This document shows, in pieces, positions 7,181-32,726 of a stretch of 33,125 nucleotides of DNA. This DNA is from Candidatus Endomicrobiellum siamense (lineage in GTDB: Bacteria > Elusimicrobiota > Endomicrobiia > Endomicrobiales > Endomicrobiaceae). The notes under the pieces are model-generated. The model was not told the DNA's origin and searched no databases. It was given only the letters and a program-made list of their open reading frames with translations. Location of the stretch: NCBI GenBank assembly GCA_031268145.1, contig JAIRXS010000001.1, positions 1-33,125 on the forward strand. Reading direction: 5' to 3'. The translations under genes were made by a program, and so were the position numbers. How positions within the stretch are numbered: position 1 is the stretch's first letter; every line of letters begins with the position of its first letter.

Positions 7181-7930
7181 ATGTATAATAATATAATATT
7201 TAAAGATTTCCAAGAGTATGTAAAAACGTACTTAATCTCATTTTTATCAGAGGAAATGACAAAACAGTTTGAAATATATTTTAATGAACTTATAGAATGG
7301 AACAAAAAAATTAATCTTATATCTTATAAAACAGAAAAGGACATACTATATAGACACTTTTACGATTGTCTTTACAGCGCAAAAATAATAACCGAACTAG
7401 AAAAAAACTTAAAAGATATAAAAGTAGCAGATTTAGGGACTGGCTCAGGAATGCCAGGAATACCTGTAAAAATTGCACTTACAAACATTCAAATTACATT
7501 AGTTGAATCTATAACCAAAAAATGTAAATTTCTTGAAAATGTAAATAACAAACTTAAATCTAATATAGAAATATTAAATACAAGAGCAGAAGAAATAGGC
7601 CAAAACTCAAAATATAGAAGCAAGTATGATTTTGTTTTATCTAGAGCTGTAAGTAAATTTTCTCCTAACTTAGAAATTTCAATTCCTTTATTAAAGGTAG
7701 GAGGCTATTTTTTAGTACATAAGACAAAAGAGTCAGTTTTAAGTCCAAAAGAAGGATGGCCGTCTATAGAAAATGCCCTTAAACATCTTGGAGCAAAGCT
7801 AGAAAAAACTATATCTTATAACCTGCCTAATCAAGAGTTAGACTATTGTATTCTAATATTTAAAAAGCACAAAGAAACCCCTTTACAATTTCCCAGAAAA
7901 GTTGGAATACCAGAGAAAAAACCTTTATAA
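7181..7930 (+). CDS. rsmG: 16S rRNA (guanine-527 N7)-methyltransferase
   Basis: 249 residues. RsmG (GidB) uses S-adenosylmethionine to methylate N7 of G527 in the 530 loop of 16S rRNA; loss gives low-level streptomycin resistance in other bacteria. Motifs: NKKINLIS (41-48), RHFYDCL (58-64), the SAM-binding loop DLGTGSGMPGIP (84-95), LSRAVSKF near 150, and a C-terminal YPRK-type tail (FPRKVGIPEKKPL). The end is therefore complete. No strong ribosome site precedes the ATG; a 17-codon ORF ends one base upstream. Its last 14 codons belong to the left copy of a direct repeat flanking the AbiE island. Confidence 0.93.
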   Translation: MYNNIIFKDFQEYVKTYLISFLSEEMTKQFEIYFNELIEWNKKINLISYKTEKDILYRHFYDCLYSAKIITELEKNLKDIKVADLGTGSGMPGIPVKIALTNIQITLVESITKKCKFLENVNNKLKSNIEILNTRAEEIGQNSKYRSKYDFVLSRAVSKFSPNLEISIPLLKVGGYFLVHKTKESVLSPKEGWPSIENALKHLGAKLEKTISYNLPNQELDYCILIFKKHKETPLQFPRKVGIPEKKPL

Positions 7931-7996
7931 TAAAAACCACTTAAATTATTTACTTTCAAATAGACAAAGGCGTTGTAGGACTAACTTCTTTTGAGG
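7889..7996 (+). repeat. Left copy of direct repeat (rsmG 3' end + rluD 3' end)
   Basis: Bases 7889-7930 are the functional end of rsmG. Bases 7931-7996 match the rsmG-rluD spacer and the 3' end of rluD found again at 9453-9536. Between 7911-7960 and 9433-9482 I count 43 of 50 identical bases, mostly transitions at the rest. Read on the minus strand, 7946-7960 still spells FESK-stop, the RluD C-terminus. About 17 bases present in real rluD (9483-9499) are missing here, so this rluD tail is non-functional. Confidence 0.8.
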
Positions 7997-8002
7997 AAAA
8001 GA

Positions 8003-8017
8003 TCAAGGGTACCTTGA
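8003..8017. promoter_or_regulatory. Inverted repeat over -35 box: candidate AbiEi operator
   Basis: TCAAGG-GTA-CCTTGA, perfect 6-base arms with a 3-base centre, overlapping the -35 box (8014-8019) of the abiE promoter. AbiEi antitoxins of characterised type IV systems repress their own operon by binding inverted repeats in the promoter, so this placement fits. The link is inference from position. Confidence 0.5.
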
Positions 8018-8042
8018 CATAATCCTTAAAAATGTTTATATT
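8014..8042 (+). promoter_or_regulatory. Sigma-70-type promoter of the abiE operon
   Basis: TTGACA (8014-8019), exactly 17 bases, then TATATT (8037-8042). This is the best promoter match in the window. It lies 58 bases before the abiEi ATG and just after the left direct repeat, as expected if the island carries its own promoter. Confidence 0.72.
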
Positions 8043-8099
8043 TATTACCTAGAATTAAGTGTCGTGTTTTTGCAAAAATGAAATGAAAGGATATATAAT

Positions 8100-8513
8100 A
8101 TGTACAGAAAAAAGAGTCTGCTCTCCAAAATATATAAGAAAATTCAGAGGTCTAAAGACTTGGCCTTTGTGCTCAAGGATTTCTATAGGTTCAGTACGGA
8201 TACTGACCAGCTTATACGAGCATTACGCAAACTCACTAAAGATAAGCTTTTGATCAAAATAGGAAAAGGAGCTTATGCAAAAGCAAAAAAGTCTGAACTT
8301 ACTGGTAAGTACATACCAGCTGGCGGGCTTATTAATTCTGGCAAACAGGCTTTGGAAAAATTTGGTGTAAAGACATTGCCTTCATCTTCTACCACTGCAT
8401 ATAACCAAGGCAAAACAACCCAGATTCCTACAGGCAGGACAATAGGTGTTAATCGCAGAGTTAGCAGAGAAATCAGTTTTAACGGGATAAGTTTAAGCTA
8501 TGAAAGAGTCTAA
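8100..8513 (+). CDS. AbiEi-type (DUF6088-like) antitoxin of a type IV TA system
   Basis: 137 residues, intact. The N-terminal part (about 1-60) reads as a winged helix (FYRFSTDTDQLIRALRKLTK, then LLIKIGKGAYAKAKKS). The second part has NQGKTTQIPTGRTIGVNRR and a terminal SREISFNGISLSYERV, the pattern of DUF6088/AbiEi antitoxins. AbiEi proteins bind DNA to repress the operon and counteract the AbiEii nucleotidyltransferase without direct contact. The start has AAAGGA about 7 bases upstream. It overlaps the abiEii start by 14 bases, the standard coupling. Here the antitoxin survives while its toxin is broken; it may still act as a repressor or simply not yet have decayed. Confidence 0.8.
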   Translation: MYRKKSLLSKIYKKIQRSKDLAFVLKDFYRFSTDTDQLIRALRKLTKDKLLIKIGKGAYAKAKKSELTGKYIPAGGLINSGKQALEKFGVKTLPSSSTTAYNQGKTTQIPTGRTIGVNRRVSREISFNGISLSYERV

Positions 8514-9408
8514 ACCAAATATCAAACTTATTGAGCTAATAGCAGAAGACTTGACCATAGATTCTTCTTTCATAGAAAAAGATTGGTATGTCACACAAAT
8601 TTTACACATCATGCAGACATTGAATAATAAAAAACACTGCTTTATATTCGCAGGAGGAACATGCCTTTCAAAAGCATACAAAATTATAGAAAGATTTTCA
8701 GAAGATATTGATTTTAAGATATCTGGCAATTTCTCAGACAGAAACGAAAGAAGAAAATTATGAGAAACCCTTGTTCATGCTTTAGAGAAAAACGGATTAT
8801 TTAAAATAGTGGACGTTAAATCAGAAAATAAAAGCAGTAAAATTACAATCGAACTAGATTATAACCGCATTTTCATACATCTTCCACGTTAAGAACGCAT
8901 ATAAAGATAGAAATTGTTTTTAGCGAACCGATATTGCCAATAGAACAGAAAAATATCAACTCTTTTTGCTCAAAATATAGAACAGATATTGATGAAAGAT
9001 TTTCTCTACATTGTATAAATCCTACAGAAACCGCAGCAGAAAAATTGAGTGCATTCGTCTGGCGTGTACCCTCGACAGATAGAACAGAGAAATTGTACAG
9101 TAAAAAATGACCCAACGCTAATGCGTCACTTATACGATTTGGTAGCTTTAAAAGATATTATATTCAATAACTGCTTTCTTTTTACGAAACTTGTTAAAGA
9201 ATTATACGAACAAGACAAGAAACGCAGCGCTTTAAGCGAAGATAAAACTTTAAAGCAGGCAATATCAGCCACAGCAAAAAAATTAACGGAAGATAAGGCT
9301 TTTGAAAACGATTATACAAAATTTGTTCAAAACATGAGTTATAGTACTAATAAAATCTCCTTTTCTTCCGCTATCAATAACTTCAAAAAAATATCAGAAA
9401 CCTTTTAA
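8500..9408 (+). pseudogene. AbiEii toxin (nucleotidyltransferase), inactivated by one stop and two frameshifts
   Basis: The first 87 codons are open and hold the nucleotidyltransferase core: AGGTCLSKAY (51-60) and RFSEDIDF (65-72), with the paired Asp69 and Asp71. An in-frame TGA at 8761-8763 follows NERRKL; the same frame then continues with ETLVHALEKNGLFK. At about 8887-8892 the frame shifts (HLPR-stop becomes LRTHIKIEIVFSEP), continuing through NPTETAAEKLSAFVWR. A second shift between about 9070 and 9115 leads to NDPTLMRHLYDLVALK, and the frame stays open to 9408. All AbiEii segments remain in order, so decay looks recent and mutational. A functional toxin would need readthrough plus two frame corrections. 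Confidence 0.88.
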
Positions 9409-9410
9409 TA

Positions 9411-9536
9411 TTTTTCTTAAAAATACTAATATCAGAAAAAAAGCCCTTATAATAAAAACAGCTCAAATTATTTGCTTTCAAAAATTTCTGACATATCTTT
9501 AGGCAAGGGCGCTGTAAAACTGATTTTTTTTGAAAT
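9411..9536 (+). repeat. Right copy of direct repeat (rsmG 3' remnant + rluD 3' end)
   Basis: Bases 9411-9452 align codon by codon with the last 14 codons of rsmG and end SEKKPL-stop (rsmG itself ends PEKKPL-stop). Here no rsmG gene precedes them; they follow the dead abiEii directly. Bases 9468-9536 are the functional 3' end of rluD. The 15-base spacers between the rsmG-type stop and the rluD stop have the same length in both copies, 12 of 15 bases identical. See the left copy at 7889-7996. Confidence 0.8.
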
Positions 9537-10355
9537 GTTTGGATGAGTAAATGTTACACTATAAGCGTGCAACATTTGTCTTTTATAATTTCTACCATTT
9601 ATTATTTCTGGACCACCATATTGGAAATCCCCTACAACCGGATGATTTATATACTTCATATGACTCCTTATTTGGTGAGTTCTTCCCGTGATAATCCTTA
9701 CTTCTAAAAGAGTATACCCATCTTTTCTTGAAATAACCTTAAACTCTGTTATAGCCATTTTTTTTGCTAAAGAGTTTACTGACATTAACTTTCTATTTTG
9801 AGGAGCCCTTCCAATAGGAGCTTCTATACGCCCTTTATTTTCAACAATTATTCCTTTAACTGCCGCATAATATATTTTTTTTACAGCTCTATTTTGTAAT
9901 TGCTTAGAAATACTTATTTTAGATTTTTCATTTTTAGCAAAAATTATAATACCTGAAGTATCCTTGTCAAGTCTATGAACTAAATAAGGTCTATATTTAC
10001 CATTTGAGTGCGCAACTAATGCATTAAGAAGAGTCCCCGAAGTATGCCCATATGACGGGTGGACAACAATGCCGGCTTGTTTGTTTATTATTACTATATC
10101 TTCATCTTCATATATAATGTCAAGTTCTATGTTTTCTGGATTTATTTGAAGAGATTCTTCTTCTTTAAATTTAAAAACAACCCTATCATTATGTTTTAAT
10201 TTATAACTTGACAACACAGGTCCACCATTTACAAAAACTTTTTGGTCCAAAATAAGTCTTTGAAAATATGAACGCGAAAAATCTTTGTATATAGAAGTTA
10301 AATAAGAATCTATTCTTTCATTTTCAAATTTTTCGTAGCGTAGCTTTTCTTGCAT
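9468..10355 (-). CDS. rluD: RluA/RluD-family 23S rRNA pseudouridine synthase
   Basis: 295 residues from the ATG at 10353-10355, which has GGAG nine bases upstream. The frame is open 7 codons further to a TTG, but that start lies within the ribosome site region and is unlikely. An S4 RNA-binding domain (about 10-70) precedes the catalytic domain with HRLDKDTSG (127-135; Asp130 is the predicted nucleophile) and GRTHQIRSHMKY. The RluA/RluC/RluD subclass cannot be fixed by eye; RluD-like length and the lgt-adjacent context make RluD likely. It overlaps lgt by 32 bases, so the two are probably translationally coupled. Its 3' end forms part of the right direct repeat. Confidence 0.88.
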   Translation of the reverse strand: MQEKLRYEKFENERIDSYLTSIYKDFSRSYFQRLILDQKVFVNGGPVLSSYKLKHNDRVVFKFKEEESLQINPENIELDIIYEDEDIVIINKQAGIVVHPSYGHTSGTLLNALVAHSNGKYRPYLVHRLDKDTSGIIIFAKNEKSKISISKQLQNRAVKKIYYAAVKGIIVENKGRIEAPIGRAPQNRKLMSVNSLAKKMAITEFKVISRKDGYTLLEVRIITGRTHQIRSHMKYINHPVVGDFQYGGPEIINGRNYKRQMLHAYSVTFTHPNISKKISFTAPLPKDMSEIFESK

Positions 10356-11094
10356 ATATAAATACTCCAACAACAAATAAAATTATAGATATATTTTGAG
10401 AAATTGAAAATCCAAAGTAATACATCCCTCTATCATCACCTCTAAAATATTCAACTACAAACCTTAAAATAGCATATAGTATTAAATAAACAGCAAAAAC
10501 AGTACCAGTTTCTCTTACCTTTTTCATATAAAAAAGTAAGATTAAAAATATAAACAAATTTCCTAATGACTCATAGATTTGCGTTGGATGTAAATGTTGT
10601 CCTAAAACCGCTAAAGACTGTTTGTCTTTAAAAACAACACTCCATGGCATGTTAGTTTCTCTTCCATAACAGCAACCTGAAAAAAAACATCCTATTCTAC
10701 CTATGGCATGCCCTAAAGCAAGAGCAGGAGAAAAAAAATCTCCAAGTAATAGAATTTGTATATTTTTAACCTTACAATATATTATTGAAAAAGTAACTAT
10801 AGTTATAAATCCGCCATAATAAACTAGACCCCCTTGCCAAACTTTAAAAATATCTAAAGGATTAGTAATATAATCTTTTAAATTCGTTAAAACATAAAAA
10901 ACTCTAGCACCAACGATACCAAAAAAAACTAAATATACAAAAAAAGTATAAAGTTCATCTTGTGTAAAAATTTTTGATTTTAATTTACTTAATGAATAAG
11001 AAAGATAGTGCATTGAAGTAATAAAAGCTACAGCTACAAAAAGACCGTATGAAAATATTTTTAAACCGCCAAAACTAAATAGTACAGGATACAT
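10324..11094 (-). CDS. lgt: Phosphatidylglycerol--prolipoprotein diacylglyceryl transferase
   Basis: 256 residues from the ATG at 11092-11094, preceded by AAAGGG; the frame extends 12 codons upstream into lspA but those residues (MTFWYLTEKGCK) are not Lgt-like. Lgt is an inner-membrane enzyme that transfers diacylglycerol from phosphatidylglycerol to the lipobox Cys of prolipoproteins. Seen: several hydrophobic membrane segments, the Lgt signature GHAIGRIGCFFSGCCYG, and LHPTQIYES. The start lies one base past the lspA stop (TAA-A-ATG), so the two lipoprotein-maturation genes are adjacent and coupled. Confidence 0.94.
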   Translation of the reverse strand: MYPVLFSFGGLKIFSYGLFVAVAFITSMHYLSYSLSKLKSKIFTQDELYTFFVYLVFFGIVGARVFYVLTNLKDYITNPLDIFKVWQGGLVYYGGFITIVTFSIIYCKVKNIQILLLGDFFSPALALGHAIGRIGCFFSGCCYGRETNMPWSVVFKDKQSLAVLGQHLHPTQIYESLGNLFIFLILLFYMKKVRETGTVFAVYLILYAILRFVVEYFRGDDRGMYYFGFSISQNISIILFVVGVFIYARKATLRKI

Positions 11095-18123: not shown

Positions 18124-18132
18124 AATCTTTAT

Positions 18133-18474
18133 CTGAAAATGAATATAAACTATGTTTTAAACCAACTAGTGGAAAGTTAAAAGCAGCAGATTCTTACAAG
18201 ATAGTTTTATTTGGGTCTTATGTGTACTGGCACTGCTACGCGTGATATTGATTTGATGATAATTTTAGACAATTATCTTATTTCAAAGACGTATAGTGAA
18301 GATGTTAAAAGATATATTGCTATAAGAAAACTAATCTTGGATATAAATTCTCAATATTCAAGGGACTTAAAAATTTATTCTCGAGCTGAGTTTCAAAGAA
18401 AAAAAGAAAGTGGTAATTTTTTTATCAGAGAAATAGAAAAAACGGAAAAAACTATTTATGAAAAACAAAATTAA
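18133..18474 (+). pseudogene. MNT-type nucleotidyltransferase (antitoxin of MNT/HEPN pair), frameshifted
   Basis: KIVLFGSYVY (about 18190-18222) is the start of a minimal nucleotidyltransferase GSxxxG motif. The next codon is broken by one extra T (TAC-T-GGC), and the sequence continues in the next frame as GTATRDIDLMIILDN to LKIYSRAEFQRK and a stop at 18472-18474. Relatives usually have two more residues in RDSDIDL, so a small deletion is likely too. No ATG opens the first frame. The ORF from TTG at 18211 is only the second part. In MntA/HepT pairs this protein AMPylates the HEPN toxin. Non-functional here, I infer. Confidence 0.72.
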
Positions 18475-18832
18475 AGATTGGATAGAGATTGCAGATGAAG
18501 ATATTGTATCAGCGCAGGTTTTAATGGCGGATGGGCGTATTAACTTTTCATTATAGAAAAATACTTTAAAGCGTATTTATTAGAGCATGATTGGGAATTC
18601 AAAAAACACATGACTTAATGAGATTATATATTGAAATAAAGAAAATAAAAGATTTACGAATAGATGAAGATACTCTTAATGGAAATAGATAGGATTTATA
18701 TAAACAAGATATCCTGATGATTATATTGAACCATCAGAGAGAGAGATAGAAAAATTCTATGAGCTTGCTAAAAAAATAGACAAAAAAATTAAAAGAGAAT
18801 TAGGTATTAACTCCGAACTTGTCTGGTTTTAA
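18458..18832 (+). pseudogene. HEPN-domain (HepT-like) toxin remnant, multiple lesions
   Basis: Starts with an ATG overlapping the MNT end: KDWIEIADEDIVSAQVLM is a typical HEPN helix 1. The frame stops at TAG 18554-18556, and about 20 bases corresponding to the usual CFHxQQA segment seem deleted. Further pieces follow in other frames: EKYFKAYLLEHDWEF, then THDLMRLYIEIKKIKDLRID, then RYPDDYIEPSEREIEKFYELAKK. All pieces are in the right order. The 3' end runs into a minus-strand AbiEii-like fragment, so the last residues may be foreign. HEPN toxins of these pairs act as RNases; this copy cannot. Confidence 0.75.
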
Positions 18833-18967
18833 TTTTTTTACTATTCTGCTTAATGCATTATTTATGTTTGCGAAAGCTTTTTCTCTGCCTTCAAAACCGA
18901 TATAAGTTAAATCTATGTCAACGGACACTCTTGGAAACAGGATTATATTCTTCTTAATATATTCAAA
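18800..18967 (-). pseudogene. Fragment of an AbiEii-like nucleotidyltransferase
   Basis: The minus strand from 18967 to 18800 is open and reads FPRVSVDIDLTYIGFEGREK, followed by FANINNALSRIVKKLK, which fits the active-site region (SxDIDLTY) of a different AbiEii subfamily from the one at 8.5 kb. The N-terminal GGT motif and the rest of the protein are missing. Its upstream side abuts the argG 3' end (in-frame stop at 18968-18970) and its downstream side overlaps the HEPN remnant. A leftover of an older TA module. Confidence 0.55.
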
Positions 18968-32607: not shown

Positions 32608-32631
32608 TTCACACCTTACACTTGAGTTAAA

Positions 32632-32702
32632 CAGGGGTGGATGGATTTGAACCACCAAAGCTGGTTTTGGAGACCAGCAGTTTACCGTTAGCTTACACCC
32701 CC
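32632..32702 (-). tRNA. trnW: tRNA-Trp (anticodon CCA)
   Basis: 71 bases on the minus strand. Acceptor GGGGGTG / CACCCCT with a G-T pair at 1-72, discriminator G, anticodon stem CTGGT / ACCAG with loop CTCCAAA (anticodon CCA), T arm GGTGG-TTCAAAT-CCATC. The D stem (AGCT / AACT) has a C-A mismatch and the variable loop is 4 bases. The 3' CCA is not encoded. Lies between rpmG and secE, the usual place for trnW. Confidence 0.93.
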
Positions 32703-32726
32703 ACTAAAAATTAATATTAATTTATA

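Follow-up and report, generated by a model that had tools for sequence, protein, structure and literature searches.

An AbiE operon between duplicated ends of rsmG and rluD in Candidatus Endomicrobiellum siamense: probable transposase-free insertion with a long target duplication

Genes and repeat at the rsmG-rluD junction

The window analysed here is a whole contig (C33, 33,125 bases) of Candidatus Endomicrobiellum siamense, in which an AbiE toxin-antitoxin operon lies between the convergent genes rsmG and rluD, and the joined ends of these two genes occur twice, once on each side of the operon. The genome that holds the window (G000) comprises 1.26 Mb (1,259,240 bases) in 47 contigs; G001-G040 denote the other genomes of its genus set (41 in all) and L codes denote fetched loci. 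Among named genomes, the closest relatives of its rsmG belong to Candidatus Endomicrobiellum metagenome-assembled genomes. The genus consists of endosymbionts of termite-gut flagellates, as outlined in a published account (PMC11257099). The gene for the 16S rRNA methyltransferase G, rsmG, occupies 7181-7930 on the forward strand (Pfam GidB, 9e-44) and is 80-83% identical in G005, G006 and G016 (80% in G005). The gene for the 23S rRNA pseudouridine synthase, rluD, occupies 9468-10376 on the reverse strand (Pfam PseudoU_synth_2, 2.9e-35, and S4, 3.6e-8). Both are working genes, the 3′ end of rsmG falling within the left copy of the repeat and that of rluD within the right copy.

The left copy (7873-7994, forward strand, 122 bp) consists of the working rsmG end, a 15-base spacer (7931-7945) and a dead rluD tail, whereas the right copy (9396-9533, forward strand, 138 bp) consists of a dead rsmG tail, a spacer of again 15 bases from stop to stop (9453-9467) and the working rluD end. 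The dead rluD tail (7946-7994, reverse strand) still reads FESK-stop and has a 17-base deletion; it was aligned to the working rluD ends of its own genome and of five relatives, and tested alone its score was reached by none of 500 shuffles. The dead rsmG tail (9396-9452, forward strand, starting at about 9396) reads ...ISEKKPL-stop and, aligned with rsmG tails and tested alone, was equalled in 3 of 500 shuffles. Over the whole repeat, a gapped local alignment finds 94 of 121 aligned bases identical (77.7%), with a score of 79 against 21.4 ± 2.9 in dinucleotide shuffles, none of which (0/1000) reached it. This is the top self-match of the 33 kb window (E 1.3e-11; the runner-up has 0.006). A first-pass annotation, made from the letters of this DNA, had described the same-orientation duplicate around AbiE, the division of working and dead ends between its two halves, the equal spacers and 43 identical bases in a 50-base core. 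All of these are borne out, and a recount of the ungapped core (7911-7960 against 9433-9482) gives exactly 43/50. The comparison with shuffled sequence had been set beforehand as the check on the repeat, and the score lies far above the shuffles. The alternative that the right-hand SEKKPL tail is native 3′ DNA of abiEii fails: the tail lies beyond the abiEii stop and stands in the order of rsmG tail, spacer and rluD seen in relatives.

The same annotation had suggested that the two repeats would allow the island to be looped out again. Homologous recombination needs longer identity than 13 bases. Because the longest exact run between the copies is just 13 bases, with 77.7% identity overall, clean loop-out is now unlikely and this suggestion is not supported today.

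A repeat around a module might also be a pair of dispersed elements resembling miniature inverted-repeat transposable elements (MITEs), or the module might be a composite transposon. Dispersed repeats do flank two other modules, namely a Gp49-type pair in G000 (L191) and the AbiE module of G006, which is bounded by a 90-base repeat present in at least 18 copies. The window repeat, however, is made of gene ends, and a query covering 7860-8010 has its matches (E ≤ 0.001) confined to two places in the whole 1.26 Mb genome. The 90-base element of G006 does not match the window insert either (scores 22-23). This explanation is close to refuted.

The AbiE insert and its decay

The inserted segment (7995-9395, forward strand, about 1.4 kb) is bounded by the two repeat copies and, in the list of open reading frames (ORFs), holds the AbiE operon only. 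An imperfect palindrome, TCAAGGGTACCTTGA, read from the sequence at 8003-8017 ahead of abiEi, is a possible operator. The antitoxin gene abiEi (8100-8513, forward strand) is open and of the DUF6088 type (PADLOC AbiEi, 1.5e-40; Pfam DUF6088, 5.5e-6). The toxin gene abiEii, also on the forward strand, is broken into three pieces by one in-frame TGA (8761-8763) and two frame changes. The first fragment (8500-8763) ends at this TGA (Pfam AbiEii, 5.3e-13; PADLOC, 9e-28), the middle part (8817-9074) lies in another frame, contains four stops and was found by a family search of the own genome, and the last fragment (9049-9408; PADLOC AbiEii, 6.4e-21) extends to profile position 304 of 307, so that abiEii runs up to the right repeat copy at its 3′ end. 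The first-pass description needs one correction here, as the AbiE module is not intact. Gene order and gene families are those of the AbiE type IV toxin-antitoxin systems, but with its toxin gene broken the module is a fossil.

No transposase or integrase was seen in or beside the insert, among the ORFs of the window and in Pfam searches of the island and its neighbours. There is also no tRNA gene at the insert boundary; a tRNA scan places the sole tRNA gene of the window at 32631-32703. The first-pass statement that this is not an insertion sequence (IS), integrase or tRNA-site event thus holds.

The cargo is restricted to one lineage. A match to abiEi occurs in 1 of the 41 genus genomes, namely G000, and in none of the other 40. 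When the phylum was searched with the AbiEi model, 43 of 340 genomes matched, and the closest score outside the own genome belongs to another family, f15. A pattern scan of viral contigs confirmed no close relative of abiEi, and the relatives on plasmids (36 records) are all less than 60% identical.

The ancestral junction and the origin of its second copy

Matches to rsmG were found in 31 of the 41 genus genomes (the own included) and to the rluD family in 38. Judged by coordinates, in 10 of the 30 relatives with an rsmG match the two genes are convergent and at most about 255 bases apart (G003, G004, G005, G012, G019, G031, G032, G034, G038 and G040), and another 19 have no adjacent pair (the genes are on separate contigs or far apart, or rluD was not found). 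G009 retains an rsmG remnant adjoining rluD (C2:194102-194248). In G005 the stop-to-stop spacer is 16 bases. A tree of rluD from 30 genomes places G000 as sister to (G006,(G005,(G011,(G001,G016)))) with a clade support of 99/97; the placement of G006 is weaker (86/65). Since G005 and nine other relatives have one junction, and G005 is nested within this clade, the single adjacent convergent junction is taken from these comparisons as the ancestral state and the abiE insertion as specific to the G000 lineage. Both the proposal that rsmG and rluD were once convergent neighbours and the expectation, formulated beforehand, that relatives lacking abiE carry one junction copy agree with these ten genomes.

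The two copies in the window resemble each other in ways that point to the host. In the rluD tail, both have C at a site where G005, G006, G011, G001 and G016 have T. Their spacers are closer to each other than to that of G005, the sole close relative in which the spacer survives (it is lost in G006). Three other sites show a change in the working copy where the dead copy retains the base of the relatives. These comparisons were read by eye. The pattern fits a second copy that is a duplicate of the host's own junction, old enough to have diverged by 22%.

These shared states bear on a Campbell-type single crossover, in which a circle carrying AbiE and a piece of an rsmG-rluD junction that stemmed from this lineage or a sibling would recombine with the chromosome and leave the homologous stretch at both ends. 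Such an event gives exactly the observed layout, with the repeat as long as the shared homology. In an mBio 2024 paper, free-living and endosymbiotic Endomicrobia are reported not to differ notably in competence and transformation genes (PMC11257099), which makes DNA uptake plausible. Against this, the circle must first acquire 140 bp of the rsmG-rluD junction, and the scans of viral contigs and plasmids gave no closer abiEi relative than those described above. The similar cases at other junctions described below would each require their own host piece on a circle. A crossover with a foreign junction is also made less likely by the states that the copies share and the relatives lack, few as these sites are. 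The first-pass annotation had left the choice between a crossover and entry together with a duplication of the junction; that the duplication belongs with the insertion is supported, and the crossover is unlikely.

In other relatives the site is harder to read. In G006 and G016, rsmG and rluD lie on different contigs, with three of the four gene ends at most about 430 bases from a contig end and the rluD of G016 at 3.3 kb. The DNA next to the latter contains an IS200-like remnant, which at 1.4e-4 falls just short of the Pfam cut-off, as well as an AAA-ATPase/PDDEXK gene (Pfam, 3.5e-63 and 1.7e-17). In G011 (99% complete) and G001, rluD is present and rsmG was not found. In G015 a single contig carries the two convergent genes, which are separated by 6.6 kb (C6:9017-15660), a larger island at the same junction.

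The same layout at other junctions

G006, a close relative, shows the pattern twice. A 328-codon gene with RhuM and Fic domains (5.6e-23 and 8.1e-11) lies there between a glycosyltransferase gene and feoA, bounded by two copies of 85 bp (L280, 4184-4268 and 5306-5390) that are 92% identical over 84 bases, with a longest exact run of 25. Each copy consists of the end of one neighbour gene and the start of the other. G005, G016, G011 and G001 have a single glycosyltransferase-feoA junction, with the two protein matches 36-47 bases apart. In the second case, an M50 peptidase gene and mnmG enclose a split DUF3800 gene (2.9e-9), and the bounding copies measure 71 and 69 bp (L091, 722-792 and 2077-2145), with 93% identity and an exact run of 43. 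G005 and G016 have this junction in one copy; beyond it, similarity to the right outer flank persists in both genomes and to the left outer flank in G016. In three of the genomes with the single glycosyltransferase-feoA junction, G005 (C6), G016 (C49) and G001 (C20), the two genes lie in a single open frame of 500-513 codons, which may reflect a gene fusion.

At a third locus of G006 (C9; L292, 8379-11998), three copies of one repeat alternate with cargo genes: the first copy follows a VapBC pair, the second a DUF4143 ATPase gene and the third a weakly PIN-like gene. Each copy corresponds to the end of a methyltransferase gene (7.5e-12), the copies being 98-99% identical over 76-97 bases, and the cargo genes score 2.9e-15 (VapB), 6.9e-12 (PIN), 6.9e-42 (DUF4143) and 2.7e-4 (PIN-like, below the Pfam cut-off). 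From its arrangement, the array may represent serial insertions at one site. In G000 itself (C19, L197), a HEPN-MNT pair lies between the glycosyltransferase gene and feoA, and its bounding copies of 359 and 379 bases have 94% aligned identity. In G005, G016 and G001 the same pair adjoins the glycosyltransferase gene on its opposite side, so that a tandem duplication followed by loss explains L197 equally well and the case is ambiguous.

These cases come from scans for same-strand repeats at E ≤ 1e-6. In G000 the scan covered 40 stretches with 587,860 bases (620,985 of 1,259,240 with the window) and spacings up to 10 kb. In G006 and G016 it covered 20 stretches each together with stretches fetched otherwise (294,436 and 330,341 bases), spacings up to 6 kb and repeats of at most three copies. 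The two clean G006 cases (L280 and L091) were fetched for other reasons and are not a random sample. Repeat pairs were sorted by eye into paralogous genes, dispersed repeats and target duplications, with ORFs inspected for part of them. The window-like pairs kept were, in G000, the window and the ambiguous L197, with L182, and, in G006, L280, L091 and L292. The annotation had expected relatives with other modules to share the two-copy layout; this does not hold at rsmG-rluD and holds at two other junctions of G006.

At L182 (18616-19599; G000:C4), an ATPase-like gene and a STAS-like DUF4325 gene are accompanied by a repeated piece of the STAS gene start (68 bp, identical) on the far side, which is more likely an operon rearrangement. 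In G006 (L147, 6780-7737), a 35-base direct repeat (88.6%) surrounds a similar ATPase-like gene.

The recurrence of the layout bears on a sequence of two events as well, namely a tandem duplication of the junction and the later arrival of AbiE between its copies by some unrelated route. Bacteria commonly undergo tandem duplication, and part of the HEPN-MNT arrangement of G000 may have arisen in this way. Hardly anything but the insert, however, occupies the space between the copies, and both events would have had to happen at each of three separate junctions in two genomes. Those rsmG flanks of relatives that were inspected by eye showed no empty tandem copy. Two independent events at the window are therefore rather improbable.

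AbiE loci across the phylum

Direct repeats of at least 38 bits that span the locus were found at 2 of 20 AbiEi loci (one being the window) and 7 of 30 AbiEii loci; the control loci gave 0/29 (rsmG) and 1/29 (rluD). The 30 AbiEii loci belong to the top-scoring part of the matches, which came from 167 of 334 genomes. By itself this survey does not demonstrate target duplication. L129 was rejected as a target duplication, its repeat being dispersed in G006, as were L135 (several scattered copies) and L143 and L145 (duplicated neighbour genes). L124 and L132 are complex and were placed in no class. The remaining candidates are L112 (31 bp) and L144 (36 bp); relatives of L144 have one copy, with weak extra homology on the left.

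Probable insertion with a long target duplication

The arrangement is best explained by a transposase-free insertion of the AbiE operon of about 1.4 kb between convergent rsmG and rluD with a long target duplication, a reading to which a probability of roughly 0.74 may be given. It draws on the repeat, on the single junction of the ancestor, on a cargo specific to one lineage, on the lack of a transposase or integrase beside the insert and on the pattern found twice in a close relative. A DNA piece carrying abiEi-abiEii only would have inserted between the two genes, and a target of about 140 bp, made up of the 15-base spacer together with ~57 bases from the end of rsmG and ~65 from the end of rluD, would have been duplicated. 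Each gene would have retained a working end in one copy, so that nothing was lost. The spare half of each copy would then have drifted, and the toxin gene would have decayed later.

Several observations weigh against this reading. No mechanism was observed. The host origin of both copies hinges on few sites, and a donor nearer to G000 than G006 is possible. Own-tail alignments covering the flanks of both genes in G006 and G016 and the spacers of L049, L050 and L051 found no dead tail above shuffles. The G016 rsmG tail, the sole tail tried there, matched the rluD flanks of G011 and G001 no better than shuffles. In 22 comparisons covering 11 further relatives with both genes in hand (G007, G008, G010, G014, G015, G018, G025, G026, G035, G037 and G039; for G015, 1.5 kb at each end of the 6.6 kb interval), 7 to 191 of 200 shuffles reached the score; the best, G026 with 7/200, is at chance level for 22. 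The rsmG-rluD junction has thus been broken or filled more than once, with a target duplication seen in G000 only, and insertions there need not duplicate the target. The sampled stretches of G016 yielded no clear window-like case. A spanning repeat, 31 bp long, occurs at just one of the 19 remaining AbiEi-type loci of the phylum.

The manner of joining is deduced from the finished structure. This structure would need both strands of the ~140 bp target to be copied and linear or opened foreign DNA to be joined between the copies. Tentatively, and at somewhat less than an even chance, the joining may have been the repair of a broken or widely nicked site, with copying of both single-stranded ends, separated by some 70 to a few hundred bases, during the capture of linear incoming DNA. 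The same outcome would be expected from a broken fork that copied the incoming piece and resumed at a point behind the one where it had stopped, and the present data do not tell the two apart. That both neighbours have an intact end in the surviving cases would be accounted for by selection.

A wider proposal is that single-operon toxin-antitoxin genes and other defence-like genes enter genomes throughout this clade without a transposase, duplicating a target of 70-380 bp each time, leaving both neighbours whole and being able to use one site again, as L292 of G006 would illustrate. This clade-wide route is possible, at odds that fall just short of even.

Comparison with known systems

Restriction-modification genes of Helicobacter pylori and others reportedly show long target duplication, in work attributed by citing papers to Nobusato et al. 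(2000) and Furuta et al. (2010). A passage in one review describes some restriction-modification systems as inserting with target duplications that are long, differ in length and measure around 100 bp (PMC3874152). The H. pylori case also appears, with reference to Nobusato et al. (2000), in a section of a software paper (PMC1643837), and insertion with long target duplication is treated in passages of two further sources (PMC3031569, PMC4978471). As far as these passages go, the likeness lies in an addiction-type unit without its own transposase, variable host repeats of about 100 bp and an empty site in a relative. In the present genomes, relatives have the empty site with one copy, the repeats vary around 100 bp (122/138, 85, about 70 and, ambiguously, 359/379 bp) and, in the window, no known mobile element was seen to carry the unit. 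The difference is that the cargo is AbiE (in G006, RhuM-Fic and DUF3800) and not restriction-modification, and the host belongs to a lineage of termite-gut flagellate endosymbionts; the window is thus a variant.

In Microcystis aeruginosa PCC 7806, a ParDE-like pair lies just downstream of a chromosomal gene between two identical direct repeats of 152 bp, according to part of PMC7935541. It resembles the window as a toxin-antitoxin pair beside a chromosomal gene between long direct repeats. Unlike the window repeats, which are the ends of both neighbours, those of Microcystis hold a 16 bp inverted repeat and, in that part of the source, are not described as gene ends or with an empty site.

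Islands at the 3′ ends of tRNA or protein genes are also bounded by a copy of a gene 3′ end. In the window, by contrast, there is no integrase and no tRNA gene, and the ends of two genes are duplicated. The att cores are far shorter than the present repeat. A largely open-access literature search, covering titles and abstract openings, returned no report of long target duplication for AbiE or Endomicrobia, and nothing on Endomicrobium pseudogenes together with toxin-antitoxin systems.

Other toxin-antitoxin genes and dispersed repeats

Two further places in the window resemble toxin genes, and long direct repeats flank neither. Between a KefB-like transporter gene and argG (18124-18950), remnants resemble, by eye, a nucleotidyltransferase-HEPN toxin-antitoxin pair; an ORF there (18211-18474) has no Pfam match, and a reversed AbiEii fragment lies at 18809-18937 (7.5e-4, below the cut-off). 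At 754-1362, a zeta-toxin-like kinase gene (Pfam, 1.9e-10) lies amid housekeeping genes.

AbiE modules elsewhere in the Elusimicrobiota include L154 (3131-5117; G229), with repeats of 31 bp (97%), and L152 (2650-4419; G312), with repeats of 36 bp (97%); relatives of G312 have one copy upstream of the next gene (argH by eye). The 90-base repeat of G006 is MITE-like, with inverted ends of about CTGACTTGACC...GGTCAAGTCAG (L147, 5425-5513, among others), and is sparse in relatives. In G006 one copy directly follows rsmG (C34:35916-35995), and another is located in L292, 40 bases past one of the repeat copies there. The Gp49-type toxin of G000 (L191, 4625-5626; C13) forms a pair with an HI1420-type antitoxin downstream of rlmN. 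A dispersed 126-base repeat borders the pair on each side (86.5%), and C6 holds a further copy.

Implications

The question of how toxin-antitoxin operons spread when they have no transposase can be addressed in this one small clade, which offers several cases of different ages, with copies 78% to 99% identical. In the three cases with empty sites, the outcome of insertion can be read base by base, which makes the mechanism testable. If the clade-wide route is real, a behaviour known from restriction-modification genes would extend to toxin-antitoxin genes at large. The cases also show that organisms inside flagellate cells have acquired such genes after splitting from their sampled relatives.

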